Assembly (NCBI GenBank): GCA_030949565.1
Contig: JAUZSK010000014.1
Location: 1-64,000, forward strand
Length of the DNA stretch: 64,000 nucleotides
Source of the DNA: Enterobacterales bacterium
GTDB lineage: Bacteria; Pseudomonadota; Gammaproteobacteria; Enterobacterales; Kangiellaceae
Direction of reading: 5' to 3'
The notes beneath the pieces were generated by a model. The model saw only the letters and a list, made by a program, of their open reading frames with translations, was not told where the DNA came from and did no database searches. Position numbers and translations under genes: made by a program. Below are positions 2,300 through 63,726 of the stretch, in pieces (position 1 is the first letter of the stretch; each line of letters opens with the position of its first letter).

Positions 2300-5142
2300 T
2301 TATTTCACTGCTGCTTGATCTAAAACCTGTTTCAAAAATTTTCCGGTAAAGGATTTTTTATTTTTCACCACTGTTTCCGGTGTTCCTTGGGCAATGATTT
2401 GCCCACCTTTACTGCCGCCTTCAGGCCCGAGGTCAATGATCCAATCTGCGGTTTTGATCACATCTAAATTGTGTTCGATGACAACCACGGTATTGCCGTG
2501 ATCTCTTAATCGGTGCAGAACGGCTAGTAGTTGTTTGACATCGTGAAAATGTAATCCGGTTGTGGGTTCATCCAAAATATACAGAGTTTTTCCGGTGTCT
2601 CTCTTACTGAGTTCTTTGGATAATTTGACTCGCTGAGCTTCACCACCGGATAAAGTGGTTGCTGCTTGCCCTAGGCAAATATAAGAAAGACCGACATCGA
2701 TAAGCGTTTGTAATTTACGCGCAACTGCTGGGATCGCATCAAAAAAATCGCGGGCATCTTCTACAGTCATTTCTAATATTTGATGGATATTTTTATCCTT
2801 GTAGGTGATTTCTAAAGTCTCTCGATTGTATCGTTTACTTTTGCAAACATCGCAAGCAACATACATGTCTGGCAAAAGTGCATTTCCACTTTTATTACGC
2901 CATCACCTTGGCAGGCTTCACAGCGCCCGCCTTTCACATTAAAACTAAAGCGACCGGGTTTATAGCCGCGGGTTCTTGACTCTTGAGTGGCGGCCAGCAG
3001 TTCTCTGATAGGAGTAAAAATACCGGTATAGGTGGCAGGGTTGGAACGAGGTGTTCGTCCAATGGGCGCCTGGTTAATATCGACCACTTTATCGAAATGT
3101 TCCATGCCGGTATAACTTTTGTAAGCTGATGGGGTTAAACTAGTGGCGCGATTTAAATCGGTGGCTGCAATGGGGTAAAGTGTATTATTGATTAAACTGG
3201 ATTTTCCGGAACCTGAAACGCCTGTAATGCAGGTGAAAATTCCGATAGGGAGTTTTAAATCGACTGACTGTAAGTTGTTACCCGTAGCACCTTTTAATTC
3301 AAAAAAATGATTGTTTTTAGCCGCTATTCGTTTTTCAGGCAGATGTATTTTCTCCCTTCCAGATAAATATTTAGCGGTTAACGATTGCTTGTTTTTTAAA
3401 ATATCTTTGAGCTTGCCTTCGGCGATGACTTGACCACCATGAACGCCTGCACCTGGCCCAATATCCAAAATATGATCAGCGCTACGGATTGCTTCTTCAT
3501 CGTGTTCTACCACGATAACGGTGTTACCGAGATCACGCAGATGACGCAATGTTTTGAGTAAGCGTTCATTATCCCTTTGATGTAAACCGATGGAAGGTTC
3601 ATCAAGCACATACATGACACCTACAAGCCCTGCACCAATTTGACTGGCAAGTCTGATCCGCTGAGCTTCACCGCCGGATAGTGTGTCAGCGCTGCGCTCC
3701 AAGGATAAATATTCTAAACCGACGTTGACCAAAAATTCTAATCGGTCGCGTATTTCTTTAAGGATTTTGTCGGCGATTTTTCCACGCTTGCCGGGAAGTT
3801 TTAATTGGCTAAAAAAATCATAGGCTTGATCAATGGGTAATGCTGTGAGTTGAGGTAGGTTCTTCTTTTTGATAAAAACTGATCGAGCTGATAGGGTTAG
3901 CCTTGTACCTTTACAGGAAGGGCAGGCTTGTTTGGTCATGTATTTTTGTAATTCTTCTCGTACCGCCATGGATTCGGTTTCATGGTAGCGTCTTTGCATA
4001 TTAGGGATAATACCTTCAAAACGATGTACACGCTTCATCATATCGCCACGGTCATTGGAATAGACAAATTCTATTTGAGTTTTACCGCTGCCATAAAGGA
4101 TGGTTTTTTGAACCTTTTTAGTTAGCTTTTTAAATGGTTTTTCGATATCAAAGGCATAATGTTTGGCTAAGGATTTGAGCATGTGAAAATAATAAACACT
4201 GCGTCTGTCCCAGCCGCGAATAGCACCGCCAGCGAGAGAAACGTCAGAATTAACAACAATACGGTCGGGATCAAAAAACTGATCAACCCCTAAACCATCG
4301 CAGGTATCACAAGCTCCTGCTGGATTATTAAAAGAAAATAACCGAGGTTCTAATTCAGTTAAACTATAGCCACACTGTGGACAAGCAAATTTGGCTGAAA
4401 AAGTAATTTCTTGTTGTTTATCTTTAATCTCCATTGGTGCAATTTTGGCGATACCATCGGCCAGTTCTAAAGCCGTTTCAAAAGATTCGGCTAATCGCTG
4501 CTTCATATCTTTACGAACTTTGAATCGATCCACGACCACTTCAATGGTGTGTTTTTTGTGAAGTTCGAGTTTAGGCGCTTCACTCAGCTCGTAAGTTTTG
4601 CCGTTGATACGGGCACGAATAAAACCCTTCACCTGTAACTCATCAAATAAGTTTTGGTGTTCTCCTTTGCGATTATTCACCACTGGCGCAAGCAGTAAAA
4701 GCTTGCTGCCTTCTTCGAGTGCGAGGGTATGGTCAACCATTTGGCTAATGGTTTGAGCTTTTAATGGCACATTATGGTCGGGGCAAAAAGGTTCACCTAC
4801 TCTGGCGAAAAGCAATCGTAAATAGTCGTAAATTTCAGTAATGGTACCCACCGTGGATCGTGGATTGTGCGAGGTGGATTTTTGTTCAATGGAAATCGCC
4901 GGTGACAATCCTTCTATATGTTCGACATCAGGCTTCTCCATCAGCGATAAAAACTGCCGTGCATAGGCCGACAAGGATTCAACATAGCGCCTTTGCCCTT
5001 CGGCATATAAAGTGTCAAAGGCTAAGGATGATTTACCTGAACCAGAAAGTCCCGTGATGACGGTGAGCTTGTCGCGAGGGATTTTTACACTAATATTCTT
5101 TAAATTGTGGGTTTTTGCACCCCTTACTTCTATGTGATTCAT
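2300..5142 (-). CDS. uvrA: Excinuclease ABC subunit A, one apparent frameshift
   Basis: DNA-damage recognition ATPase of nucleotide excision repair, cytoplasmic, working with UvrB. It starts at ATG 5142 ([16 protein letters not shown]); the upstream in-frame extension is not conserved. Visible: N-terminal Walker [17 protein letters not shown], first zinc-finger cysteines (CPQCG...CDTCDG), ABC signature [16 protein letters not shown], second Walker [11 protein letters not shown], zinc finger [11 protein letters not shown]...CDVCKS and second signature [11 protein letters not shown]. The frame breaks between EMHF and PDMYVACD: the run of four A at 2874-2877 needs five. Correction gives 947 residues, close to the usual 940. 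All domains remain, so a sequencing error is more likely than a null allele. No canonical CTGT-N8-ACAG LexA box was seen upstream. Confidence 0.95.
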
Positions 5143-5228
5143 AAGTGATCTTGTATAATGGACGCCAAAATGATGAGATCGAAGGATCGGACTCGCTATA
5201 ATAACGCGATAAGGGCCATCAGCGCAAA

Positions 5229-6617
5229 ATGAATAGCCAAACAAAAGCAACACAATCCCATAAAATGAATGCTGAAGAACGTCGAGCGGCAATTACTCTT
5301 AGCAGCGTGTTTGCTTTACGAATGTTGGGACTCTTTATGTTGCTTCCGGTATTTAGCTTGGCCGGACAATCGCTTAAGGGCTATACGCCTGCATTAATAG
5401 GTCTAGCCATCGGTGCCTATGGTCTTACTCAAGCTATTTTTCAGATTCCCTTTGGTTGGTTATCCGATCGCTACGGTCGCAAACCAATTATTTTATTTGG
5501 TTTGGTGTTGTTTTTTATCGGCAGTCTGGTTGCAGGTTTAAGTGATCATATATATGGCGTGATTGCCGGTCGTCTGTTGCAAGGTTGCGGCGCTATCGCC
5601 AGTGCAATCATGGCATTAGCCGCCGATCTATCCCGTGACGAGCAACGCACCAAAATAATGGCGAGTATTGGAATGAGTATTGGTGCCGCTTTTGCGGTGG
5701 CGATGATTATCGGACCGGGATTGACCCATTGGCTTGGTTTGCAAGGGTTATTTTTTGTAATCGCAGGTTTTGCGATTTTAGCCATGCTGGTGATCTACTT
5801 TTTAACTCCCAATCCTCAAAATCAATATGTACAGCGGGATAATATTGCCAGTCATGGTCAATTTTCGCGGATTTTTAAAGATGGGCAGTTAATGCGATTA
5901 AATTACGGCATTTTTACTTTGCATTTTTTACTAACCTCTTTTTTTGTGGCCTTTCCTACTCGATTAATTTCGCTGGATGTTAAAATGGTTGATCATAGCT
6001 GGGTATATCTTGTGACCATGGCAGCAGCGGTGATATTAATGCTTCCGTTAATTATTTTCGCCGAGAAAAAGCGCCAACACGCCCGCATCATGTTGTTGGC
6101 CGTTTTATTAATCGCTTTAGTTGAATTTAGTTTTGGCATGGTGCATTTCGCATTACCCTTGGTAGTGGTGGCGATGATTATCTTTTTTACTGGGTTTAAT
6201 CTATTGGAAGCTTTGCTTCCCTCAATGATTTCGCGTATCGCGCCGTTATCAGGCAAAGGCACCGCACTTGGTGTGTATTCTACTAGCCAATTTTTAGGCG
6301 CTTTCTTAGGTGGCCCAATTGCGGGGCTTATTATGCAATACAAGGGAATGGACGGCATTTATCTCATCGGCTCACTTATCGCTTTGAGCTGGGCGGTACT
6401 TTTATTAGGGCTAAAAAATCCACCGGTGTTAACCGCTTACACCTTAACCATGCCGGATGTGGCTGAAGCGGCTTTTCCTTCTTTGATTGATGAAATAAAA
6501 GCGATTGAAGGGGTTTCTGAAGCGGTTGCCCTACCAGAAGCTGGCGCGGTCTATTTAAAAGTGGATAAACGCATTTTAGATAACGAAAGCTTAGCTAAAT
6601 TTAGCAAAAAGCATTAA
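5229..6617 (+). CDS. MFS transporter with C-terminal YAM-like domain (YajR type)
   Basis: A 462-residue inner-membrane transporter with about 12 hydrophobic segments. The MFS loop motif after TM2 is present ([11 protein letters not shown], residues 77-87), as is [12 protein letters not shown] in TM4. After TM12 there is a soluble tail of about 60 residues ([20 protein letters not shown]...) that resembles the ferredoxin-like YAM domain of YajR. Divergent from uvrA with an 86-bp gap; a TATAAT lies at 5197-5202. uvrA-MFS-ssb order is common in gammaproteobacteria. Substrate unknown; drug/proton antiport is only a family-level guess. Confidence 0.85.
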
Positions 6618-15505: not shown

Positions 15506-17425
15506 ATGAGAATAAGCAAAAACCGAGCTAATGCTAGTTTTTTGAAGCGCATGACTTGCTTGCTGGCTCTGAGTTTGTTTGGAAACTATTCGGCGGCTTC
15601 CGGTAGTGAAGATGACTCTGATCATATTATTAAAGAGGTTCGAGTCGAATTTGGCGGATTAAACCAGATTATTTTAAGCGGTGATTTTTGGGATCTCGAT
15701 GAGCTTATATATATCCAACTAGGTCAAGATACCCAAGCTTTACAGATCCTTTCTCAGTCTGGCTCTGAAATTATCGTCGATTGTCCAGGCGATTGTGCTG
15801 CTGGAGATTACCTGTTAACACTTTCTGAGTTGGATGAAGATGATAATGATATCGAGCTGATGGATTCATATCATTTAACCATCGGTGCGGTTGGTCCCGC
15901 TGGACTAGTCGGGGAGCAAGGAACTCAAGGCTTGACTGGTCCGGCTGGCCCGATTGGTTCACAAGGCATTCAAGGTCCGCAGGGTTTAACGGGTGCTACC
16001 GGTCCAATCGGCCCACAAGGACCTCAGGGTCTAACGGGGTGGTTACCGGTCCACATCGGCCCAGCAAGGACCTCAGGGGTCCTCAACGGGCGCTCAAGGT
16101 TTAAAAGGTGATCCGGGCGTTGCAGGTGCAAAAGGGCCTGCTGGATTACCGGGCGAAACGGGAATGCAAGGTCCGCAGGGTTTAACGGGTGCTACCGGGC
16201 CAATCGGCCCACAAGGACCTCAGGGTCTAACGGGCGCTCAAGGTTTAAAAGGTGATCCGGGCGTTGCAGGTGCAAAAGGGCCAGCCGGCTTACCGGGCGA
16301 AACGGGAATGCAAGGTCCTCAGGGTTTAACGGGTGCTACCGGTCCAATTGGTCCACAAGGACCTCAGGGTCTAACGGGCGCTCAAGGTTTAAAAGGCGAT
16401 CCGGGCGTTGCAGGTGCAAAAGGGCCCGCCGGCTTACCGGGCGAAACGGGAATGCAAGGTCCTCAGGGTTTAACGGGAGCTACCGGTCCAATCGGCCCAC
16501 AAGGTCCGCAGGGTCTAACGGGCGCTCAAGGTTTAAAAGGTGATCCGGGCGTTGCAGGTGCAAACGGGCCCGCCGGCTTGCCGGGCGAAACGGGAATGCA
16601 AGGTCCTCAGGGTTTAACGGGTGCTACCGGTCCAATTGGTCCACAAGGACCTCAGGGCTTAAAAGGCGATCAAGGGGCTGTCGGGCCCCGAGGTCTGCAG
16701 GGACTAAAAGGAAATACAGGCTTTACAGGTCCTGCTGGGCCTCAAGGCTTAAAAGGCGATAAGGGATTTACCGGCGCGCAAGGTCTGCAAGGGCCTCAAG
16801 GCTTAAAAGGCGATAAGGGATTTACCGGCGCGCAAGGTCTGCAAGGGCCTCAAGGCTTAAAAGGCGATAAGGGATTTACCGGCGCGCAAGGTCTGCAAGG
16901 GCCTCAAGGCTTAAAAGGCGATCGCAGGCGTTGCCGGTGCACAAGGACCAGCAGGAGCAACAGGACCAACAGGACCACAAGGTCCGGCCGGAGCCGATGC
17001 TATTTTCAATCGAGCTTATGTGTCGGGGCAGTTGGAGTCGGACATTGATGCGGGGATCATTCCAGGAAGAACACTCAGTTTTAACAAAGACATTAATTCG
17101 CACTAATCTTAGGATTAGCTATACCGATAATTTTAGAGTGGCACCTTTTGCAAATTCAACGGCTACTGCGAGTGCATGTAGTTGGGAAATCCTAGTAGAC
17201 GACGTTTCTTGTGGTTCAGGAGCTTTGATTTATAGTTCTTATTCACAGGGAACGCAACCACTCTATATCCATTCTAGCAGTACCTTCGTTGGTTATTGTC
17301 CTAACATACCGAGTGGTACTCATACGCTCTCCGTGCGGGTGGGCCTTACAGCGAATATTGATCCTTCTGATTGCTATACGGGGTGGAAGTCAACCTTTAT
17401 GCTTGAAGTTGAAGAGGCAAAATAA
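15506..17425 (+). CDS. Secreted collagen-like protein with tandem Gly-X-Y repeats; three apparent frame breaks
   Basis: A signal peptide (residues 1-30) leads into an IPT/TIG-like beta domain (about 45-130, [19 protein letters not shown]...), then about 340 residues of uninterrupted Gly-X-Y triplets, then a C-terminal domain with four cysteines ([34 protein letters not shown]...GYCPN...DCYTGWKS). The frame breaks at 16033-16098 (about seven extra bases relative to the next repeat), at 16924 (one extra G) and near 17097 (one extra T). Removing nine bases gives 636 residues and a continuous reading. Such proteins form trimeric surface or extracellular fibres. Surface anchoring is not visible. 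The C-terminal domain is probably a trimerisation or binding head, by inference. Confidence 0.8.
16164..16627. repeat. 144-bp tandem repeats encoding 16 Gly-X-Y triplets
   Basis: The unit starts at METGMQ-type codons: the ATG of [10 protein letters not shown] recurs at 16164, 16308, 16452 and 16596, exactly 144 bp apart, with few substitutions. Each unit encodes 48 residues, including [19 protein letters not shown]. Near-identity between units shows recent amplification or homogenisation. A partial, corrupted unit precedes the first at about 15984-16163. Confidence 0.92.
16746..16917. repeat. 54-bp tandem repeats encoding six Gly-X-Y triplets
   Basis: GGCTTAAAAGGCGATAAGGG recurs at 16746, 16800 and 16854 with a fourth partial start at 16908, spaced 54 bp. 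The unit encodes [18 protein letters not shown] and the three copies are identical. This is a second, independent amplification within the same collagen-like gene. Confidence 0.92.
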
Positions 17426-27834: not shown

Positions 27835-28293
27835 ATGAAAAAATTACTGGTATTTACAATTTTGCTTACAATAATCTTGGCCGGCATTGGTTATGCTGTT
27901 TATTCGGATCCTGATTTTAAACGGCAACAAATCTTTATTTACACCCTAAAGAGCTTTGCTAAGCAGCTCAAACCGTTGGAATCTCAGTATAAACTTAAAC
28001 AAGTAATGCTACCTCAGCGTACAAGCTTTACTGTTTCTTATACCGATGCAGAGGGACAGCAGAAAATTGATATGATGATGCAAGTCGAAGCTAAACTGGT
28101 TCGGTTAAGCTACCCCAAAGAGGGTGATTTAGACGGTGAGACGATTGTATTAGAACCTGTCATCAAACAACAGAAAGTGCTATGGAAGTGTTTAAACGGT
28201 AGTTTGTTAACACGTTATCGGATTAAAGACTGCCGTCTTGGATACGCGGTTGACCTGCACCAGATAGAGGCCAAGCTGCTGCCGAACTTTTAG
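27835..28293 (+). CDS. Small membrane-anchored/exported protein with pilin-like C-terminal loop
   Basis: A 152-residue protein with an N-terminal hydrophobic helix (MKKLLVFTILLTIILAGIGYAV). The C-terminal third (ETIVLEP...KVLWKCLNGSLLTRYRIKDC) resembles the disulfide loop region of type IV pilins, where a W-x-C is followed by a second Cys near the end. The pilin prepilin-peptidase motif (GFTLxE) is absent. Function unknown. The stop overlaps the last four bases of the convergent ctlX-like gene. Confidence 0.6.
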   Translation: MKKLLVFTILLTIILAGIGYAVYSDPDFKRQQIFIYTLKSFAKQLKPLESQYKLKQVMLPQRTSFTVSYTDAEGQQKIDMMMQVEAKLVRLSYPKEGDLDGETIVLEPVIKQQKVLWKCLNGSLLTRYRIKDCRLGYAVDLHQIEAKLLPNF

Positions 28294-29255
28294 CTATTAA
28301 TTCTGCTTAGAAAATTCTCCGCTAGCATACAACGTGCGCTGCCACCACCGACTTGCTCGATTGTCTCTATGGCTAACACGGCTAAGCTGCCATGTTGTTC
28401 AAGACAATTTCTTTGTTCACGGGTAAAGCCGTTATAGGCAGCGCGAGATAAGGCAATCACCGCTTGTCCTTTGGGGTCTATCAATTGTAAAAGATTACCG
28501 CAAAAATAATGTCCCATCTGTTGCTCGCTGATAAGCAATAGATCATTCACTGAGTTTTCTAGTTGCTGAATCACAGTTTTTCGCTGCTCTTGGCTAATCA
28601 CTGAATCCGCTAGTATTGCAAAATCCTGGCCACAGGACATCACCACATTGCTATGGTAAACCGAGTTTCCGAGTTGGCTAGAGGTATTAAATTTAACTGC
28701 TTGGTAACCTATTTGTTGGCTATATTGGTCGACTGCACTACTGACACATCGTTCTGAAATAGCGGTGTATACTTGCCGCGAAGGATGGTGAAACACCAAT
28801 GCACCGGTGCCTTCCAATATTTGGTCTGGCTTTAGAATTGGTCGTAGGTCACAGGTTTCAGTCACTTGATAACCGCTCTTATTTAATTGCACTATGAGGT
28901 TATCAATCTGTATTTCATGCTGACGGTTAGGTGTTTTCATTGGAAAGATGGTGAGCTGTCCCTTTGAACTTGTCGAAAACCAATTATTAGGAAATATGGC
29001 ATCCGGTTGAGCGATGTTGGACGGTGATTTATCCAGTGTAATAATATCGATCGCCAGTTTTTGTAAAACCTTTTGTGCTTGTTCAAATTCTTGCATGGCT
29101 TTGGTTTGAATCTGTTGGTCTGATTGGCAGGGCTTTTGTTGAAAAGAGTTATCGACTGCCGTTTGTGGGTTAAAACCAAAATCAATAGGTTTTACCATAA
29201 CCACCGACGAGGCTAAGTGGGGTTGAGTATTATTTGAGTGGTTTGATTTAAGCAT
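28290..29255 (-). CDS. ctlX: Arginine-deiminase-family hydrolase, CtlX type
   Basis: A 321-residue guanidine-group-modifying (pentein) enzyme. Landmarks: VVMVKPIDFGFNP at the start, DAIFPNNWFST (about 87-97), EGTGALVFHHPSRQVYTAIS (Glu-Gly-Thr-Gly substrate loop), FNTSSQLGNSVYHSNVVMSC with His, and the C-terminal catalytic cysteine in GGGSARCMLAENFL. CtlX proteins are linked to citrulline use; others of the clade are dimethylarginine hydrolase-like. Divergent from an alanine-dehydrogenase-like gene, which suggests amino-acid catabolism; no ornithine or carbamoyl-phosphate genes are adjacent. Confidence 0.8.
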   Translation of the reverse strand: MLKSNHSNNTQPHLASSVVMVKPIDFGFNPQTAVDNSFQQKPCQSDQQIQTKAMQEFEQAQKVLQKLAIDIITLDKSPSNIAQPDAIFPNNWFSTSSKGQLTIFPMKTPNRQHEIQIDNLIVQLNKSGYQVTETCDLRPILKPDQILEGTGALVFHHPSRQVYTAISERCVSSAVDQYSQQIGYQAVKFNTSSQLGNSVYHSNVVMSCGQDFAILADSVISQEQRKTVIQQLENSVNDLLLISEQQMGHYFCGNLLQLIDPKGQAVIALSRAAYNGFTREQRNCLEQHGSLAVLAIETIEQVGGGSARCMLAENFLSRINS

Positions 29256-31102: not shown

Positions 31103-31144
31103 TTGATCCTGATCAAGGCAAAGAAATTGATATCCTCCTATCCT
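31103..31144 (+). promoter_or_regulatory. FNR/ANR-type box with class II promoter geometry
   Basis: TTGATCCTGATCAA at 31103-31116 is a perfect match to the FNR consensus TTGAT-N4-ATCAA. A -10-like hexamer TATCCT lies at 31139-31144. If transcription starts at 31151 the box is centred at -41.5, the classic position for FNR activation. The only gene it can serve on this strand is the haem-containing barrel protein at 31293, so oxygen-limitation control is likely. Sequence and spacing are seen; activation is inferred. Confidence 0.7.
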
Positions 31145-31292
31145 AGAAATGCAAAAAAAGTGTTCTTTCGATGTCCTGCCCGCCGTTGTTTGCTACGGAC
31201 AAGCCCATCCCAAGTACTGAATTAACGAACTAAGAATGTTAATCAGCTAGGGTAGTTGTATTCTCTACTTGATTCATTCGTGGAGAGACAAA

Positions 31293-32450
31293 ATGAAAAT
31301 CAATACACTTACATTATTTGGGGCTACCTTTCTGTTAATAATAGCTTCCCTAAACGTTAAGGCTATTCCTGCATTTGCAAGAAAAACTGGCGTCGCTTGT
31401 TCTGGCTGTCATACTGCTGTTCCATCCTTAAATTCTTTTGGAAGAAAATTCAAAACCAATGGGTACCGTGTAGCAGCGGGACAACTTCCGGCGAGAAAAT
31501 TTAATGACTATCTAAACTTGGATAAATCTTTTCCGATTGCAGCCGCTTTTAGCTCGTTGCCGTATGATAAGAGCAAAAATGGAGAAACTAATGTTGCTGC
31601 GATTAATGAACTTGAATTATTTGTTGCCGGTTCATTCGGAAAAAATTGGTCAGGATTTCTAGAGTTTGCTGGAGGCCCTGGTGAGCCTGCGGGGGTAGAC
31701 CACGGTCAAATAAGTTATGCCGTTTCTCCTAAACTCAACCTACAAATTGCCTGGGGACCCACTTTTTGGAGTGATCCTTACGACACGCTGACTCATATGC
31801 GAAGGATTACAATTAGTAAAAGCTCAATTATTGGTAGCGAATTTGGCGGTGCGGATGGACCCGTGGGAGAGAATCGTTCATACATCAGCGCCAATGGTTA
31901 TTTGACCGACAAGCTTTATTATTCCGTGGGTTTTGGTAGCCAGATTGATAATGCCGCTGGTACCGATCCACAAACCACCACAGGAAGAATTGCTTTTGAT
32001 ATAACGCCAAATATAATGATAGGTGCATTTACGGTAAATGGTACTTGCACTATCGTTAGTGGCAGTAGTTTTTGCCAATTGGCTGATAGAGATTACAGCA
32101 GAAGCGGTGTTGATTTTCAAGCGGATGTCAATAATTGGAGATTCACGGGCGTTTATTTAAAGGCAACCGATGATAATGAATTAGCAACTGCATCTGAGAG
32201 CAATAAAGCGGTTACCGGTCGAATTCTGTATGCGGTAGAAGAAGATGGTCGTCCGGTTTGGGTTCCTTATCTTCAGATCGACAAGCATGAACTGTTTAAC
32301 GGTAGTGAATCGATTACTGATACTAGTTTTGGTGTGATCTATTATTTTGATGAAAATATAAAAGGTACCTTGGAATATATTGATACTGCCGGTGCGGGTA
32401 GTAGGCCGGATGATGCGAGAACGACCTTCGAGTTATCCGCTTATTTCTAG
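31293..32450 (+). CDS. Outer-membrane barrel-like protein with N-terminal c-type haem motif
   Basis: A 385-residue exported protein. ATG 31293 is chosen because GGAGA at 31282-31286 precedes it and a signal peptide follows (about 1-24, ending LNVKA). One CxxCH haem-attachment motif lies right after the signal (ARKTGVACSGCHTAVPSL). The remainder (about 60-385) is a series of amphipathic strands with Gly and aromatics (GSFGKNWSGFLEFAGG, KLYYSVGFGSQIDN, GVIYYFDENIKGTLEYI) ending in aromatic FELSAYF, so an outer-membrane barrel. A haem placed at the periplasmic mouth of a barrel suggests electron transfer to or from the outer membrane. An FNR box lies upstream. A terminator follows. Confidence 0.75.
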   Translation: MKINTLTLFGATFLLIIASLNVKAIPAFARKTGVACSGCHTAVPSLNSFGRKFKTNGYRVAAGQLPARKFNDYLNLDKSFPIAAAFSSLPYDKSKNGETNVAAINELELFVAGSFGKNWSGFLEFAGGPGEPAGVDHGQISYAVSPKLNLQIAWGPTFWSDPYDTLTHMRRITISKSSIIGSEFGGADGPVGENRSYISANGYLTDKLYYSVGFGSQIDNAAGTDPQTTTGRIAFDITPNIMIGAFTVNGTCTIVSGSSFCQLADRDYSRSGVDFQADVNNWRFTGVYLKATDDNELATASESNKAVTGRILYAVEEDGRPVWVPYLQIDKHELFNGSESITDTSFGVIYYFDENIKGTLEYIDTAGAGSRPDDARTTFELSAYF

Positions 32451-32829
32451 ATAAATATCCATTCAACAACTGAATAAGGCTGGGCTTTGCTCGGCCTTTT
32501 TTATTGGCTAAAGAATATGCTAAACACCCATTAAGTATGGGCTTGTCTGATGTTAACATCCCATTTATCCGATTCCTAAGAGAAATAATTATCATTTAAT
32601 AGCAAAAAGTTCTTTAAATTGATCCTTTTTAGAGTTATTTTGCATAGTTGGAAGATCTTTATTTTGCATCAGCGCAATCCTGAGACTCAGCGAGGTTGAT
32701 ATAAATAAGACGACTCACTGCTTCAGTGATCTTTCAACTGGTTGTTGTAGGTAATTTAAACCAGAGTTAAGGGAGTCATTAGAATAACTATTTTTAATGA
32801 CCAATTAAGCGTTCAAAAGAGGAATTGAC
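32451..32829. other. Intergenic region before the TonB receptor
   Basis: Holds the terminator of the preceding gene and an AT-rich leader. No coding frame. A Fur-like AT-rich patch (AATAATTATCATTTAAT near 32584) was examined and not accepted. Promoter of the receptor gene not identified; a RBS GAGGAA is visible at 32818-32823. Confidence 0.4.
32476..32502 (+). terminator. Rho-independent terminator
   Basis: AAGGCTGGGC and GCTCGGCCTT pair over ten positions with two G-T pairs and a TTT loop, followed by six T; 25 bases after the haem-barrel gene. Confidence 0.8.
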
Positions 32830-35734
32830 ATGATAACTGATAAAATTATAAAACCTAACAAGCTGGCCTGTATTGTTGGCCTAGTCTGTACGGGGATGTT
32901 GCCCGCACTGGCCTATTCCGCTGATCAAGATGACGGGGCGGCCAATGAGAATCGAGTGATAGTCACCGGCTCTCGGATTAGACAGGTTCAGGAAGAAGGC
33001 AATGCACCGGTAATGATCTTAACCCGTGATGAGTTAACTCAAAGCGGATTTACTTCGATAGCAGATATTTTGCAAAGATTACCAGCCGCAGGTTCGGCTC
33101 TTAATTCTCGATATAATTCCAGTGGTAATTTCGGAATGCCTTCAGATGGTGGCGGTGTTGGGGCAGGTTCGGCTGAAGTAGACCTTAGAAATCTTGGCTC
33201 TAAGCGTACCTTGGTTTTGGTTAATGGCAAACGCTGGGTCAATAACTCATCTGCCAGTGGCTTGGGGCGAGCAGTCGATTTAAATACCATTCCGATGGCG
33301 GTTATTGAGCAGATCGAGATTTTGGAAGATGGCGCCTCATCTATTTATGGTTCTGATGCTATGGCAGGCGTGGTGAACATCATTACTCGTAAAGATTTTG
33401 ATGGTATGGAAATGTCATATTATGGTGGCCAATATGATGTGGGTGATGGAAAGACTAACAATATTGAAATGTCATTTGGTTCAAGTAGTGAAAAGCATAA
33501 TTTCTTCTTTGGTCTCAGTTATCGTGATCAAGAGTCTGTTAGTGCGGCTGATCGTTCTCTCGCATCAACACCTAAACCGGGTGGGCTAGGTCGTCATGGT
33601 AGTTCAGCCACACCGGAAGGACGTTATCTTTATATCGATGCTAATGGCAATTTGGTTAATGTGACAATTAATCCAGGGGTGACTAACCCAACGTTTGATC
33701 CGAATAACCCTGGTGGACCTAATGATGATTTTCATGCTTGGAGTAATGCGGATCGGTTTAACTATGCGGCATACAATCTTTACGTAACACCTAGTACTTC
33801 TACCAATTTATTTGCCCAAGGGAACTATGAAATTGCTGAGGATACCAACTTTAACTTTACCGCTATGTACAATAAGCGAAAGTCAAAAAACCAAGCAGCT
33901 CCAGAGCCCATTTTTATAGGGCCTGAAGCGGGAACTGGCAATGCTTATGCCGATGGCGTGGTGATTGACGTAACCAACCCCTACAATCCTTTTGGTGTTA
34001 CCCTAGACTCTAGCAATTTTATTTTCGCAGGTCGTCGGCCTATTGAAAATGGTCCACGTCAGTATTTTCAGGATGTTGATACGCTACATGTTGCCGCTGG
34101 ATTAGATGGCGTATTTGAACCTTCAGGCAATCCATTTTACTGGGATGTCAATTGGTCCTGGTCTAAAAATCAAGCCAGCCAGTTGAAAACAGGCGCACTT
34201 AATGCTCGTCGCATTAATTTAGCTTTGGGTCCTGTGGCGGCTTGTAATGCTGATCCTCTATGTGTACCTTTAAATATTTTTTGGTACTGGCAGCATGACG
34301 CCAGAAATGTTGAATTATATTTCATTTGTGCAACATGATAATAGCGAAATTAACCTGCAAACCTTCTCGGCTAATATTAGTGGCGATTTAATGGAACTAC
34401 CAGCGGGACCATTAGGCTTTGCCGCGGGTATCGAGCATCGACGCGAGTCAGGAAGTTTTGATCCCGATCCTATTGCTTCTAATGGCGAAACGATGGGTAT
34501 CCCAGCATCTCCAACTTCTGGTTCAATTGCCGTGGATGAATACTATATGGAAGCGAGTATTCCACTATTGGCGGATGCCTCATTTGCTAAAGAATTGTCT
34601 TTGTCATTGGCTTTTAGAAACTCTGATTACGATCTTTCGGGCAGTGAAACCACCAGCAAGTTTGGTGTGTTGTGGCGTCCAACGGATGATTTGATGTTTA
34701 GAGGAACCATCGCACAAGGTTTTAGAGCGCCAAGTATCGCCGAGCTATTTGCCACAGGCTCTCGTTCGGATGTGACTCTTACCGATCCTTGTAGCACCAC
34801 TGACCCAGCTGTTCAAGCAACCTGTACCTCTATTTGGAGCAATATGAGCTATCCGGCTTTTAATGCCGTTAATGCCAGCCAAATCGGCGTCCGTACTGGT
34901 GGTAATATTAACCTTAAGGCGGAAACATCTGACTCTACAACCTTTGGTATGGTTTATGATGCCAGTTGGGCGGCTGAGTCTGACTGGGCTAAATCACTGG
35001 TTGTTAGCATTAATTTCTATGACCATCAGGTCGATAATGCGATCCAAGCTATCAATCCACAACTGCAATTAAATCAATGTGTTTTAGGCGGTGATCTTGC
35101 GGCTTGTAACGGTATTTCACGGGTTGGTTCAGGTACTATCAATGGTTTTGATAATGCGTTAGTCAATGCTGGAAGTATCAAAACTTCCGGTTATGATTTT
35201 ACCCTAAGCTATAAATTACCTGAAACCAGTATGGGTGATTTTGGTATCATTTGGCGTAATACCATTATTGATGAATATATTGAAAATGGTGGAGCTAATC
35301 TAGTCGGTAAAGAGTTTGGTAGTGTGCCAGACCGAGGTATACCTGAGTGGAAATATGACTTGAGTCTGAATTGGAAAAATGGCGCCATGTCAGCCAACTG
35401 GAATATTCATTGGATTGATAGTTTGGTTGAATCATGCTCTGACTTTTTGGACGATTCACCGGATAGTTTAACTAATCAAGGTCTATGTTCAAATCCTGAT
35501 ACAGCCAATAATGGTAACTCTACCAATACTCTTGATGCGACTTTTACTCATGATGTTCAAGCAAGTTATGAAACAAAATTAATGAGTAAAGAAACAACTT
35601 TCAGTGTCGGTATTCAAAATGTATTCGATCAAGATCCACCCGCTTGTACTTCTTGTGATCTGAATGGTTATGATCCAGGTGTATACCAAGCACAGGGTCG
35701 GTTCGTTTATTTCCGAGCGATGGTTAGATTGTAA
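32830..35734 (+). CDS. TonB-dependent outer-membrane receptor, one apparent frameshift
   Basis: The frame breaks at the T run 34277-34282 (six T, five expected); correction reads NIFGTGSMTPEMLNYI and gives 967 residues. Signal peptide about 1-30. The plug domain starts at about 35 (RVIVTGSRIRQ, TRDELTQSGFTSIADILQRL, VDLRNLGSKRTLVLVNGKR, SSIYGSDAMAGVVNIITRKD). The 22-strand barrel fills the rest and contains FRGTIAQGFRAPSIAELFAT and LKAETSDSTTFGMVYD; it ends in FVYFRAMVRL. The GSRI opening and Asn/Gly-rich barrel place it among receptors for carbohydrates, peptides or unknown substrates, not clear siderophore receptors. No periplasmic-binding or transporter genes are next to it. Confidence 0.92.
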
Positions 35735-35777: not shown

Positions 35778-35827
35778 ACTATAAATATGTTAAAGTGGCG
35801 ACAAGAATAGTAAACGGAGTTTTGAGT

Positions 35828-36733
35828 ATGTCACAAGCCAACTCAGTTAAATCAATTATATTTGCACTCACCGCTAATTTTTTAATTGCCATTGCAAAAT
35901 TCACCGCAGCTTATATTACCAAGTCGGGTTCGATGTTGGCGGAAGCGATCCATTCTTTGGTGGATACCAGTAATCAATTATTATTACTACTCGGTCTGAA
36001 TCGTTCAAAACAACCCGCTTCGGAAGAGCATCCACTCGGGCAGGGTAAATCCATCTATTTTTGGTCTTTTATTGTAGCGCTTATTTTATTTTCTCTCGGT
36101 GGCGTTTATGCCATTTATGAAGGCATTCATAAATTAGAGTCACCACAGCCTATTGAAGCACCTTTTATCGCCATTGGAGTTTTATTATTTTCGATTGTTG
36201 CGGAAGGGTTTTCTTTGTGGGGATGTATCCGAGAAGTAAACAAGGTTAGAGTAGGGCGCAGTTTTATTCAGTGGTTTAAAGATAGTCGCCAGAGTGAGTT
36301 ACTGGTGGTATTCGGTGAAGATGTCGCGGCATTATTTGGATTGGTCTTTGCTTTAATTGCAATCGCTTTAACCATGATAACTGGCGACCCTATTTTTGAT
36401 GCTATTGGAACGATTGTTATCGGTAGCCTGCTAGTTTTTATTGCTATCTTTTTAGGTAAGGAGGTAAAAGCTTTATTGATTGGGCAAGGCGTTGAACCCC
36501 ATATTAAGAAACAGATGTTGCAACAGTTGATGCAGCAAAAAACCATCGATAAGGTTTTTAATTTCTTGTCCTTACAAATGGGTGATGATGTGATGGTTGC
36601 GGTGAAAGTTAAAATGACTGAAAATGTATCCGCAAGCCAATTGATTGATGATATCAATGCTTGCGAAAGTGAGTTTAAACAAGCCTATCCGCAGGTTAAG
36701 TGGTTGTTTTTTGAGCCCGACCACCGCGATTAA
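35828..36733 (+). CDS. Cation diffusion facilitator (CDF) transporter
   Basis: A 301-residue inner-membrane metal/proton antiporter. ATG 35828 is chosen: it follows ACGGAG and gives the expected short N-terminus before TM1. Six hydrophobic segments are visible. TM2 holds the metal site HSLVD (about 42-46), TM5 carries GEDVAALFG with the paired acidic residue. The C-terminal cytoplasmic domain (about 215-301) ends in WLFFEPDH, with His for regulatory metal binding. Probably zinc (or iron/manganese) efflux. Followed 20 bases later by a small anchored protein, so possibly co-transcribed. Confidence 0.87.
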   Translation: MSQANSVKSIIFALTANFLIAIAKFTAAYITKSGSMLAEAIHSLVDTSNQLLLLLGLNRSKQPASEEHPLGQGKSIYFWSFIVALILFSLGGVYAIYEGIHKLESPQPIEAPFIAIGVLLFSIVAEGFSLWGCIREVNKVRVGRSFIQWFKDSRQSELLVVFGEDVAALFGLVFALIAIALTMITGDPIFDAIGTIVIGSLLVFIAIFLGKEVKALLIGQGVEPHIKKQMLQQLMQQKTIDKVFNFLSLQMGDDVMVAVKVKMTENVSASQLIDDINACESEFKQAYPQVKWLFFEPDHRD

Positions 36734-48019: not shown

Positions 48020-49863
48020 CTATTCGTCTAAAAAGCTACGCAGCTGATCGGAACGAGTGGGGTGTCTTAATTTACGCAAAGCTTTGGCTTCAATTTGTCT
48101 AATCCGTTCACGCGTCACGTCAAACTGCTTGCCAACTTCTTCTAGGGTATGGTCGGTGTTCATGCCAATTCCGAAGCGCATTCTAAGTACTTTGGCTTCT
48201 CTGGCAGTTAAACCCGATAACACTTCTTTAGTGGCTTCACCTAAGCTTTGAGAAGTAGCGATATCAATCGGTGAATCTTGATTGGCATCTTCAATAAAAT
48301 CACCTAAATGCGAATCTTCATCATCGCCGATGGGCGTTTCCATAGAGATCGGTTCTTTAGCGATCTTAAGCACTTTACGGATTTTATCTTCTGGCAATTC
48401 CATACGCTCAGCTAATTCATCCGGCTGCGGCTCGCGTCCCATTTCTTGTAGCATTTGTCGTGAAATACGATTCAGCTTATTAATGGTTTCGATCATGTGC
48501 ACAGGAATACGGATAGTTCTGGCTTGATCAGCGATTGAACGAGTAATTGCCTGTCTTATCCACCAGGTGGCATAGGTTGAAAATTTATAACCTCGACGAT
48601 ATTCAAACTTATCGACCGCTTTCATTAGGCCGATATTACCTTCTTGAATTAAATCTAAAAATTGCAGGCCGCGATTAGTGTATTTTTTAGCGATGGAAAT
48701 CACCGTCGAAGATTGGCTTCAACCATTTCCTTTTTAGCGCGACGTGCCTTGGCTTCACCAATCGACATTCGGCGATTAGTTTCTTTTACTTCATAAACAG
48801 TGAGCTTGCTTTCTTCTTCAATTTTGGCGATTTTATTTTGACAGCGAATAATATCTTCGGCGTATTCTTCTAAACTATCATGATAATCAGTATTTTTGGC
48901 TAATATTGAATCAATCCAATTGGTATTGGTTTCATTTCCCGGAAAGCTTCGGATAAAATCTTTACGTGGCATTTTGCCCTGCTCAGTAGCCAGACGCATG
49001 ATCAGCCGCTCTTGCGTTCTTAAACTGGTCATTCGGCGACGCATTCTGCCGCAAAGCTTGTCGAACATTTTAGGAAGAAGGCGGAATTTAAGAAATTCCT
49101 CCTTCATTGACTCGATGTGTTTAATTGCATTTTTGTGCTTGCGTCCATACTTATCGATCGCAGCAATGGATTTTTCATAATTTTTTCTCAGCGCGGTAAA
49201 GATTTCCTTGGCTAATTCAGGATCGGGACCAAGGTTTTCTTCTTCATCATCATCTTCTTCACCATCCTCATCGGCTAATTCATCTTTAGGGACCTCAGAA
49301 CCAACGTGAGCTGCGGCTTGAGCTGCTTCGGCTAAGTTGTCGGCATAACCTGTAATAATATCGGTTAATTTAATTTCTTCGGCTGCAAAGCGGTCGTACT
49401 CGTCGAGCAGACTACTGACAGTTTCAGGGTATTCTGCGATTGAGGCAAGAACTTGACGGATACCTTCTTCGATACGCTTTGCGATGACGATTTCGCCTTC
49501 ACGGGTTAGCAGCTCCACCGTACCCATTTCTCGCATATACATTCGTACGGGGTCGGTGGTTCGACCTAGTTCGCTTTCTACACTCGCCAATGCGGCGGCG
49601 GCTTCATCAGCAGCGTCTTCATCGGTCGCTGCATTTTCATTCATTAGCAAGGCATCGGCTTCTGGCGCGACTTCAAACACCTGAATACCCATGTCGTTGA
49701 TCATGCTGATAATGTCTTCAACCTGTTCAGGATCGACAATATCTGGCGGCAAATGGTCATTAACCTCAGCGTAGGTTAAATAGCCTTGCTCTTTACCACG
49801 GGCAATTAATAGTTTTAATTGTGATTGCTGCGAAGGTGCTTCTTTTGGTGCTTCATCTGACAT
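48020..49863 (-). CDS. rpoD: Housekeeping sigma factor sigma-70 (RpoD), one apparent frameshift
   Basis: Region 1.1 at residues about 15-70; region 1.2 about 95-125 ([20 protein letters not shown]); the acidic non-conserved region about 170-220; regions 2.1-2.4 ([57 protein letters not shown]); region 4.2 ([20 protein letters not shown]). The frame breaks inside [14 protein letters not shown]: one base is missing between 48704 and 48705 (CGAC-GGTG, expected CGACTGGTG). Restoring it gives 614 residues (E. coli 613). rpoD is essential, so the break is almost certainly a sequence error. Last gene of rpsU-yqeY-dnaG-rpoD, with its own promoter. Confidence 0.97.
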
Positions 49864-58448: not shown

Positions 58449-59684
58449 ATGGAAGCTAATAATATACTAATCATTGGTGGCGGGGCAGCTGGAATAAGTG
58501 TTGCCGCTAGTCTTCAACGCCATTCATCCGGTAAAAAATTATCAATTACTATCGTTGATCCTGCCGATACACATTATTATCAACCGGCATTCACCATTGT
58601 TGGCGGCGGTGTATATTCCTTTGATAAAACTCATCGCCCCATGAAAAGCTTGATCCCTAATGGGGTGACCTTGGTGTCTAAGGCCGCAACAAAAATCGAC
58701 CCAGATAATAATCAAGTGACCTTAGATGATGGTGAAACACTGGATTATGATTATCTGGTGGTTTGTCCAGGACTCGTATTAGATTGGGATGCGATTGAAG
58801 GTGCTAAGGAGGCTTTGGGCAAAAATGGAGTATGCTCTAACTACTCGCCTGACTATGTTCGTTATACTTGGGAAACTTTACAAACGCTGCAATCAGGTAG
58901 TAAGGCTGTCTTCACTCAAGCCCCCATGCCGTTTAAGTGCCCAGGTGCGCCACAAAAAATAGCCTATTTAACGGCTGACTATTTACGCGGTAAAGGCATT
59001 TTGGAACAGTGTGATGTGACCTTTGCCAATCCAGGACCGGGCATGTTTGGTGTGGCTTATTTTGCTAAACAGTTGGACAAGGTCATTGAGGGCTATGGCA
59101 TTCATAAAAAGATGCTGCATAAATTAATTAAGGTCGATGGCGATAATAAAAAGGCCACTTTTGAAGTAGTTGATGGTGATGATAAGGGTAAAGTGGTTGA
59201 AATGGAGTTTGATATGCTGCATATCACGCCCCATCAAAAAACCCCAGATTTCTTACATGGCTCTCCAATTACCAATGAGGGTGGTTGGGTTGAAGTCGAT
59301 CAAGAGTCAATGCAGCATATAAAATACCCTAATATATTCTCACTGGGTGATGCTTGTTCAACACCTAATTCAAAAACAGCTGCTGCAATACGGAAGCAAG
59401 TACCAACGGTAGTGGCCAATATTAATCATGTGATTGATGGCCAAGAGATTGAAAAATCCTATTATGGTTATGGTTCGTGCCCATTGACGACCGCACGTGG
59501 CAAAGTTTTAATGGCAGAGTTTATCTATGGTGGCAAGGTTACACCGACTCTACCTTTCTTTACCACACCCTATAAATCGACTTGGCTGATGTGGATAAGT
59601 AAAACCATTGGATTACCATTGCTTTATTGGAGTTATATGCTTAAAGGCCATCATAAGTTCTTTGAGCACTTCGATGGATTATGA
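58449..59684 (+). CDS. sqr: Sulfide:quinone oxidoreductase (SQR), FAD-dependent
   Basis: A 411-residue flavoprotein of the pyridine-nucleotide-disulfide fold. FAD loop IIGGGAAGISVAASLQR; quinone-site region DTHYYQPAFTIVGGG; redox cysteine in PFKCPGAPQKIAYLTADYL; C-terminal FAD loop NIFSLGDACSTPNSKTAAAIR, then YGYGSCPLTTARGKVLMAEF and a membrane-associated tail with STWLMWISKTIGLPLLYW. It oxidises sulfide to sulfane sulfur and passes electrons to ubiquinone at the inner membrane. SQR type II by the KCPGAP motif. A terminator follows; no sulfur-dioxygenase gene is adjacent. Confidence 0.9.
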   Translation: MEANNILIIGGGAAGISVAASLQRHSSGKKLSITIVDPADTHYYQPAFTIVGGGVYSFDKTHRPMKSLIPNGVTLVSKAATKIDPDNNQVTLDDGETLDYDYLVVCPGLVLDWDAIEGAKEALGKNGVCSNYSPDYVRYTWETLQTLQSGSKAVFTQAPMPFKCPGAPQKIAYLTADYLRGKGILEQCDVTFANPGPGMFGVAYFAKQLDKVIEGYGIHKKMLHKLIKVDGDNKKATFEVVDGDDKGKVVEMEFDMLHITPHQKTPDFLHGSPITNEGGWVEVDQESMQHIKYPNIFSLGDACSTPNSKTAAAIRKQVPTVVANINHVIDGQEIEKSYYGYGSCPLTTARGKVLMAEFIYGGKVTPTLPFFTTPYKSTWLMWISKTIGLPLLYWSYMLKGHHKFFEHFDGL

Positions 59685-61030: not shown

Positions 61031-61250
61031 GGTTTAAGGGTCTTTTCACACTTCGAATAAACCCTATCTTAGCATATCTATTGTATCTACCGGAAAGATG
61101 AAAGCTTATATTTGGTTTTTTAGCAGAAATTACGTTGGCTTAGGTCTTGACTTGGATGACCCTTGTCGCTCATTATGTTCTTTTACGAGAGATCCAACAT
61201 TTATCAGCCTTTCAAATTGGCAAACGAGACAATATTTAGTAAATAGACCT

Positions 61251-62940
61251 ATGTATTTAGAGCATTTTTCACTTAACGAACGTCCCTTTTCTATTTCGCC
61301 CGATCCGCGATTTCTCTTTATGAGCAATCGTTATCGAGAGGCGCTGGCACATTTAACCTATGGGGTTGAAGATGGCGGCGGGTTTGTATTGCTTACCGGA
61401 GAAGTTGGCACCGGAAAAACCACCGTTTGCCGCTGTTTGCTACAACAATTACCCGATAAAACGCGTTTAGCTTTTGTGCTTAACCCTAAACTCAATTCAT
61501 TGGAGCTTTTAGCCACCATCTGCGATGAACTAGGAATTGACTATCCCGAAAACTGTCAAAGTCTTAAGATATTAACTGACCGATTAAGTGATTATTTAGT
61601 GCAATGTTTCGACCAGGGCTTAAGTGTCGTGGTGATGATTGACGAAGCGCAAAATATTGATACAGAAGTCTTAGAGCAAATCCGATTATTGACTAACCTT
61701 GAGACTAATCAAAAGAAATTATTGCAGATTATTTTAGTCGGTCAGCCTGAATTACAAGAAAAACTAGCTCGGCGAGATCTACGCCAGTTGGCGCAGCGTA
61801 TTACCGCTCGATATCATCTAAGGCCGCTTAACTTAAAAGAAACCATCGCTTACGTGCTGCATCGTATTCGTATTGCAGGAACAAAAAAACCTTTGTTTAG
61901 TCGTTCAGCGGTTGAGCTTTTACATCAAAAAACTAATGGTATCCCGCGTTTGATTAACACCATTTGTGATAGAGCTTTGGTTGCGGCGGCTAGTCGAAAT
62001 AAATTGGCCGTTGATCAGAAATTAATGCGAGAAGCGATTGCCGATGTGATCGGCGCACCCGATTTTAAATCTCCCGTGAGACAACCGAATCAATGGCGAA
62101 AAAAATGCTCTTATGGCGATGCTTTTATTGTTAGTGCTGGGTTTTGTATACTGGCTAGGACAACAATCGGCAGAAAATAAAAGTCCAAATGAACCTCAAT
62201 CAAAACTAGGAATTATTGTAAAAGATCCGCAGACGCAAGGGTCTGCCGCGGAACAGTCTATTGCTGATTTGCAACCGAAACAAACAACAAGATTAGCGCT
62301 CAAACCGCAACTCACATCAAATGTTTCTCTGACCGAACGCATGTTAGGTAATGAGCGTTGGGATAGTAACGGACATTGGTCAATGATCGCTTTATTGTCT
62401 TTATGGCAATTAGACTATTCTCCGCTAAATGATGGGCAAGCTTGTGATTACGCAGCTAACTATGGCTTACGCTGTCATCAAGCTAAGGCTAATTGGCAAC
62501 AGCTTAGAGAATTCAACCGTCCCGCCATTTTAAAATTTTCAGCCGGTTTACAAGGGGAGTTTTGGGGGACTTTGATTAAATTAAAAGGCAGCAATGCTGA
62601 ACTTAAATTTGGTGATAGAAGTATCACTCTTGGATTGGATGAGTTGTCGACTCTGTGGACTGGTGATTACCAAATTCTTTGGCAGGCTCCGCAAGGTTAT
62701 CAAGGTGATATCTTGTTAGGGCAAAAAGGTGAGGCTGTAAAATGGCTATCAGAAAAATTGAAAATTTTACTGAATCCTAGTTTAGAAATTAGCGAACATT
62801 TTGAACAAAATTTATTAGTCAGTTTAAGCCAGTATCAAAAACAAAGAAATATTCAATCGGATGGTATTGCCGGTATTCAAACCATTTTAACCATAAACGG
62901 GGAAACTCTTGATGGCATTCCCTTATTAGTCGACTATTAA
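61251..62940 (+). CDS. exeA: ExeA/GspA AAA ATPase with transmembrane segment and C-terminal peptidoglycan-binding region, one apparent frameshift
   Basis: Starts at ATG 61251 (MYLEHFSLNERPFSISPDPR); an ORF start 51 codons upstream is not conserved. Walker A LLTGEVGTGKTTVCR, Walker B VVMIDEAQNID, arginine finger region QRITARYHLRPL (domain about 1-280). Poly-A run 62099-62105 needs one A less; the joined product, 562 residues, then has the single membrane helix (MLLLLVLGFVYWLGQQ), a C39-peptidase-like fold (HWSMIALLSLWQLDYS...) and a PG-binding domain at the end (GQKGEAVKWLSEKLKILLNP...GIAGIQTILTI). It remodels peptidoglycan for secretin assembly with GspB. Confidence 0.9.
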
Positions 62941-63036: not shown

Positions 63037-63726
63037 ATGTCGATACTACTTGAATCACTCGAGCAAAAAGGTAATCTAGCCGATGATGGTATCCCTAACT
63101 TAGGTGATTCTCATTTTGATGATGAAATGCTAAGTGATGAATGGCTACTTGAAAAGATTAAATTATGGCAACAGATAGCTTCTGCATTGGCTTTTTTATT
63201 ACTAATCAGTTGGGGGTATTTTTTTCTATCTCTCGCGTCAGTGGATAAACAACTCGATTTAAAGGTGATATCAAACAGCGAACCAAAATTACCCGTCAAT
63301 GCAAGTCAAAAATCCAACTTGCAGACTAGGGAACTAGCCGACCCTGCAGATCAGTTAAGCAAGCAAAACCAATTACCCAAGTCACAGCAGGCAGGGGCCA
63401 ATAAAGTCAGCTATAAACCACAGAAAATCAGTAAAAATGCAGTTTCCCCAGAGTCTAATAACAGGCTTAAGAATAATCAACGAGGAAATAAAAAATCAAA
63501 GCTTGAATCGACTAAGCTTATCAGTCTGGATTCTGCCGGACTTCCAGAAATTAACATTAGCTCGTATGCTATTTCAGACAATGTTAAAAAAAGTGTTGTG
63601 GTGATCAATGGCCAGTTTTATTCTCAAGGAGAGTTTGTAATGCCGGGCGTTAAATTGATAGCTATCAAAAAAGAAGGCATTTTGTTGGAGCATAATGGAC
63701 AACTTGAATTAAAAAAATATCCTTAA
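63037..63726 (+). CDS. gspB: General secretion pathway protein B (GspB/ExeB)
   Basis: A 229-residue bitopic inner-membrane protein. Cytoplasmic head (SILLESLEQKG, about 1-45), one membrane helix (ALAFLLLISWGYFFLSLA, about 50-68), a low-complexity spacer rich in Lys/Gln/Ser and a C-terminal T2SSB domain (about 170-229: LPEINISSYAISDNVKKSVV, VVINGQFYSQGEFVMPGVKL). Works with ExeA in secretin targeting. 96 bases after exeA. No other T2SS gene is in the window. Confidence 0.9.
   Translation: MSILLESLEQKGNLADDGIPNLGDSHFDDEMLSDEWLLEKIKLWQQIASALAFLLLISWGYFFLSLASVDKQLDLKVISNSEPKLPVNASQKSNLQTRELADPADQLSKQNQLPKSQQAGANKVSYKPQKISKNAVSPESNNRLKNNQRGNKKSKLESTKLISLDSAGLPEINISSYAISDNVKKSVVVINGQFYSQGEFVMPGVKLIAIKKEGILLEHNGQLELKKYP

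Follow-up and report, generated by a model that had tools for sequence, protein, structure and literature searches.

A divergent Cyc2-type cytochrome-porin gene preceded by a perfect FNR box in a Kangiellaceae genome

Within the 64-kb stretch of DNA analysed here (the window), the gene at positions 31293 to 32450 is a divergent example of the established Cyc2 architecture, and its product is almost certainly a fused cytochrome-porin of the Cyc2 superfamily. The best explanation of its role, to which we assign a probability of roughly 60%, is that the protein takes electrons from a dissolved donor to periplasmic cytochromes and that FNR raises its expression at low oxygen. The first-pass annotation of this DNA had singled the gene out on the premise that known outer-membrane electron conduits combine a separate cytochrome with a porin. 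That premise of novelty fails, since Cyc2 is a published family of one-chain, one-haem cytochrome-porins with exactly this architecture (PMC8406198, PMC5566968), and with it falls the main reason originally given for interest in the gene. What is left of interest, judged from the sequence, is a distinct and deeply branching group that combines a conserved haem site with unusual control.

Architecture of the gene product

The open reading frame encodes 385 amino acids and runs on the plus strand from an ATG at 31293 to a stop codon ending at 32450, with an in-frame TTG further upstream at 31269. The features of the protein are located as follows.

31293–32450, plus strand: gene for a Cyc2-like fused monohaem cytochrome-porin of 385 amino acids, identified from sequence, homologues, an AlphaFold2 model, a tree and profile-profile comparison
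31293–31364, plus strand: predicted signal peptide (residues 1–24), read from the sequence, with predicted cleavage after VKA; A24 is invariant in homologues
31365–31469, plus strand: short cytochrome segment IPAFARKTGVACSGCHTAVPSLNSFGRKFKTNGYR at the predicted mature N-terminus, bearing the Cyc2 signature (motifs as in PMC8406198)
31398–31412, plus strand: CSGCH haem c attachment site (residues 36–40), read from the sequence and invariant in 43 homologues
31536–32447, plus strand: predicted 16-strand beta-barrel (residues 82–385) ending in a C-terminal Phe, from the AlphaFold2 model and fold matches

The signal peptide MKINTLTLFGATFLLIIASLNVKA is followed by IPAFARKTGVACSGCH, and eleven residues separate the predicted cleavage site from CSGCH, the only in-frame CxxCH among open frames of at least 100 amino acids in the window. 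Cyc2 proteins are marked by AXPXFAR[Q/K][T/Y], a single CXXCH followed by PXL, a length of at least 365 residues and a 16-strand barrel, and the first of these motifs, which precedes CXXCH, has been described as unique to the family (PMC8406198). The window protein carries the full signature, AIPAFARKT-GVA-CSGCH-TAV-PSL, behind its signal peptide: AIPAFARKT occupies residues 24–32 at the same distance from C36 as in the Mariprofundus homologue L041, and PXL lies four residues past the single CXXCH (CSGCHTAVPSL). Nine residues of this region (A24, P26, F28, A29, C36, C39, H40, P44 and L46) do not vary among the 43 aligned homologues, and the same nine, together with CxxCH, are kept in 11 of the 11 members of the closest clade, although the AXPXFAR motif itself is looser in some of them (FARSQ in L118, FAAKY in L119, FARQH in L112 and FARKN in L116).

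This conservation also disposes of the notion that the gene encodes an ordinary porin with a chance CxxCH, or is an artefact of assembly. Frameshifts elsewhere in the assembly (in rpoD, uvrA and a TonB receptor) lend the latter some initial appeal. However, a chance motif would not be kept with its flanking residues across 43 homologues, the reading frame is intact, and the protein is identical over its full length at 63% of positions to L032 from an independent genome; we therefore regard this explanation as scarcely credible. The loss of CxxCH among homologues, which had been named beforehand as grounds for abandoning the proposal, did not occur. The wider state of the assembly is an observation in its own right: rpoD, uvrA, the TonB-dependent receptor, a gspA-like ATPase and ccmF, all expected to be whole, are split by frameshifts (window 48020–49863, 2300–5292, 32830–35734 and 61098–62940; G000:C72:73849–75616), and ccoN contains a stop, in contrast to the intact cyc2-like frame. 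These splits and the ccoN stop point to indel errors of assembly rather than to biology. A 22-nt inverted repeat, 77% complementary, lies on either side of the cyc2-like gene (31187–31208 and 32537–32558); it could be fortuitous or a remnant of a mobile element.

The remainder of the protein is predicted to form an outer-membrane barrel. AlphaFold2, supplied with 43 homologues, returned 16 strands from residues 82–94 through 374–384 (mean pLDDT 74, pTM 0.76); the N-terminal segment was modelled with three short helices, and the top Foldseek matches for this model were outer-membrane porins only. By VIA-align, the nearest solved folds were the phosphate porins OprO (4rjw; Z 24.6 over 307 residues) and OprP (2o4v; Z 24.1), tied with several other porins; unlike the window protein, OprO and OprP are without haem, and they share only 13–14% identity with it. 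A sequence search of the PDB returned the DcaP porin alone (E 0.009). OprO and OprP also served as modelling templates for the published Cyc2 of Mariprofundus PV-1 (PMC8406198), and L041, folded as a control, likewise gave 16 strands with OprP and OprO as top matches, similar N-terminal helices and the same long loop past strand 5. The proposal of a haem motif placed just past the signal peptide and ahead of a barrel-like remainder is thus borne out by the predicted 16 strands, the OprO/OprP matches and the C-terminal Phe; the soluble domain that might have emerged from structure prediction did not.

Place within the Cyc2 family

No model in Pfam or NCBIfam matches the window protein, and a TamB match at E 0.15 is noise. 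Full-length homology to Cyc2 was instead evident from profile comparison: in hhalign, a profile of the closest clade matched cluster-1 Cyc2 at 99.7% (E 6.6e-26, 368 columns) and the wider Cyc2 family at 99.8%. The barrel taken alone matched Cyc2 at 91% (E about 9e-7), which is weaker than the match of cluster 1 to the rest of the family (97.8%). Among the matches listed in a scan of the genome collection, the nearest relatives were L032 (from the metagenome-assembled genome SZUA-36) and L033 (35% identity), beyond which lay the general mass of Cyc2 proteins at about 20–25% overall. A profile built from the window protein, L032 and L033 recovered eight further full-length members at E <1e-80 among 369 genomes of the class, and the next matches came only at 1e-28.

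The resulting gammaproteobacterial clade of 11 members, the window protein included, forms one side of a branch supported at 100/100 in a tree whose references were cluster-1 Cyc2 proteins and a single Cyc2 from a rus operon (L166); L051 and L126 were left out of the second tree because of their very long branches. Cluster 1, the neutrophilic clade of Zetaproteobacteria and lucinid symbionts (here Mariprofundus, Ghiorsea and a lucinid symbiont), is set apart at 100/98 without the window protein, and a third group holds L166, beside which lie coxB, coxA, ctaA and rusticyanin; the window protein falls outside this group as well. A long branch (1.42) separates the clade from all Cyc2 proteins of demonstrated activity. 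For comparison, the published Cyc2 tree takes in 1,593 sequences.

With the Cyc2 of Mariprofundus ferrooxydans PV-1 and the rest of cluster 1, the window protein shares the signal peptide, a CxxCH just after it, AXPXFAR[QK]T with PXL, a 16-strand OprO/OprP-like barrel and full-length homology. It differs in its lower identity (about 20–25%) and separate clade, in a K instead of Q in FARKT, in CS-x-CH where CLxCH is common in Zetaproteobacteria, and in being encoded behind an FNR box in an organism that is not a known iron oxidiser. The Acidithiobacillus ferrooxidans type of Cyc2 (cluster 2, represented by L166) has the one-chain architecture and the signature region in common with it, but the window gene does not lie in a cyc2-cyc1-cox-rus operon. 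Leptospirillum Cyt572 (of the long-branched cluster 3) shares, by description, the N-terminal haem c and the barrel (PMC5566968). The resemblance to MtrAB, MtoAB, PioAB and other porin-cytochrome complexes is limited to the use of an outer-membrane barrel and haem c for the passage of electrons; those systems pair a separate decahaem cytochrome with a barrel of 26–28 strands, whereas the window protein has one haem, one chain and 16 strands. A search of the host genome for MtrB/PioB was empty, though the search lacked a working control.

The sampled relatives of the host lack the gene. It was not found in 60 of them searched with the window protein, and none of the other 294 genomes of the order has its exact motif, against 66 of 398 genomes of the phylum; plasmids gave N-terminal matches only. 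Base composition carries no signal of recent transfer (42.1% GC in the gene, 41.2% in the window). A precise empty site was not demonstrable in genomes of the same genus: G004 keeps the neighbouring CDF-aroG-lptD arrangement, to which no part of the block at 27.8–35.7 kb is adjoined. The CDF cation-efflux gene itself (window 35795–36733), which has weak similarity to FieF, lies downstream of the TonB receptor. Elsewhere, the window encodes a eukaryotic-type dimethylarginine dimethylaminohydrolase (DDAH_eukar, E 2e-80; 28290–29255), here in a bacterium, and a collagen-like Gly-x-y repeat protein of highly regular blocks that is broken by frameshifts (15506–17425).

Neighbouring cytochromes and control by oxygen

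Among the nine relatives with readable flanks, six have a c-type cytochrome gene immediately beside the cyc2-like gene, for a protein with one haem in L131 and L138, with two in L136 and with three in L132, L133 and L134. At an assumed background rate of 2%, the binomial probability of this is about 1e-6. A further c-type cytochrome gene lies two genes away from L033, while the window gene, L032, L135 and L137 have no such neighbour. The small or triheme periplasmic cytochromes encoded beside the cyc2-like genes of L131 (L131:8055–9547), L133 and L134 are candidates for direct electron partners; the host genome yielded no triheme counterpart of the L134 protein. At L138 (6466–9726) the cyc2-like gene is followed by a c-type cytochrome and then by the flavin subunit of a flavocytochrome c sulfide dehydrogenase, possibly a sulfur-linked variant. 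Regulatory and assembly genes occur in other neighbourhoods, with a Crp/Fnr-type regulator near L133; the surroundings of L032 include a two-component system, together with genes assigned from their sequence to System II cytochrome c assembly. The host genome of the window encodes CcmF, split by frameshift, and CcoN.

Signals for transcription were found on both sides of the gene.

31103–31116, no strand assigned: perfect FNR box TTGATCCTGATCAA, in a 321-bp intergenic gap, 176 bp before the ATG
31139–31144, plus strand: candidate −10 element TATCCT, picked by eye
32476–32498, plus strand: intrinsic terminator-like hairpin with a T-run (two found against 1.6 expected, and weak alone)

Under a dinucleotide model, 0.19 perfect FNR boxes are expected in the window and 0.001 in the 321-bp gap. 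A second perfect box, at 63655–63668, lies within a coding frame and is probably chance. If TATCCT were the −10 element, TTGATCCTGATCAA would be centred at −41.5, the usual activating position; a sigma-70 scan listed no promoter at TATCCT. FNR-like boxes that match at 9 of 10 positions stand 126–129 bp upstream in L113, L114 and L115. Because the perfect box is accompanied by a gene for Fnr in the host genome, above the NCBIfam cut-off, control of the window gene by FNR is plausible. The hairpin suggests a single-gene transcript, and Rfam gave no match to an RNA element, whether in the leader or in the rest of the window.

Electron donor and direction of flow

Once the protein has been exported, the Ccm system would load a single haem c onto its short N-terminal segment, and the C-terminal region would insert into the outer membrane as a 16-strand barrel with the haem as a plug at the periplasmic mouth of its pore. 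The published Cyc2 model has the haem plugging the pore in this manner, so that a dissolved partner must enter it, and the redox potential of PV-1 Cyc2 is +208 mV (PMC8406198). A small dissolved redox partner, most likely Fe(II), would accordingly come in from outside and pass an electron to the haem, which would relay it by way of periplasmic c-type cytochromes to an oxidase, for instance cbb3, with FNR raising expression as oxygen falls. The suggestion that one chain with one haem could be a minimal route for electrons is well supported by these comparisons. We consider inward transfer, with Fe(II) or a comparable dissolved donor as the source, slightly more likely than not. Fe(II) is favoured on the grounds that those family members put to the test have been shown to use it, though the function of distant homologues is considered uncertain (PMC8406198). 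Several points weigh against this main reading: the clade's long branch, the absence of a cytochrome gene beside the window gene, the lack of an L134-like triheme partner in searches of the host, and a host that does not seem to be among the known iron oxidisers.

Electrons might instead flow outward under anoxia, with periplasmic cytochromes as their source and Fe(III), or some other acceptor dissolved in the pore, as their destination. A perfect FNR box would suit anoxic induction, and Cyc2 of Acidithiobacillus ferrooxidans, for which a reverse role as Fe(III) reductase has been proposed, is up in anaerobic growth on H2 and Fe(III) (PMC7735108). However, Fe(III) is mostly insoluble at neutral pH and a single haem inside a pore cannot reach a solid, and FNR serves micro-oxic growth too, which leaves the outward direction unlikely. 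Entry of electrons from sulfide or other sulfur species, again through the fusion to periplasmic cytochromes, is hinted at by the L138 neighbourhood and by a sulfide:quinone reductase-like gene in the window (58449–59684; NF049943, 231 bits, below the curated cut-off of 525). Such a context occurs in only one of ten relatives, the cytochromes beside the others are generic, and the reductase-like gene is 26 kb away; we accordingly hold this route to be quite improbable.

The first-pass annotation had also raised a redox sensor, and a related notion is a haem-gated porin whose pore opens or closes with redox state without net electron flow. The solitary window gene with its FNR box and no cytochrome partner would fit such a device, as would the inability of one haem to bridge the membrane (PMC8406198). 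Yet relatives are linked to electron-carrier cytochromes, the protein has no signalling domain and the known members of the family are oxidases, and we give this idea slightly less credence still than the sulfur route. More speculatively, and with considerable doubt on our part, the 11-member clade could be a fourth functional branch of cytochrome-porins, regulated by oxygen through FNR, paired with assorted periplasmic cytochromes, working with a substrate that is not Fe(II) or in a reversible manner, and present in hosts with no known capacity for extracellular electron transfer.

Genes resembling cyc2 occur in many bacteria besides the recognised iron oxidisers, and caution is warranted in that the cyc2 motif alone is unsafe as a marker of iron oxidation. 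The clade described here is well defined, its haem site is fully conserved, its genes usually lie beside that of a periplasmic cytochrome and, in this genome, the gene stands behind a perfect FNR box. It thereby bears on the question of whether the one-haem pore design is a device for iron oxidation or serves a wider exchange of electrons at low oxygen.
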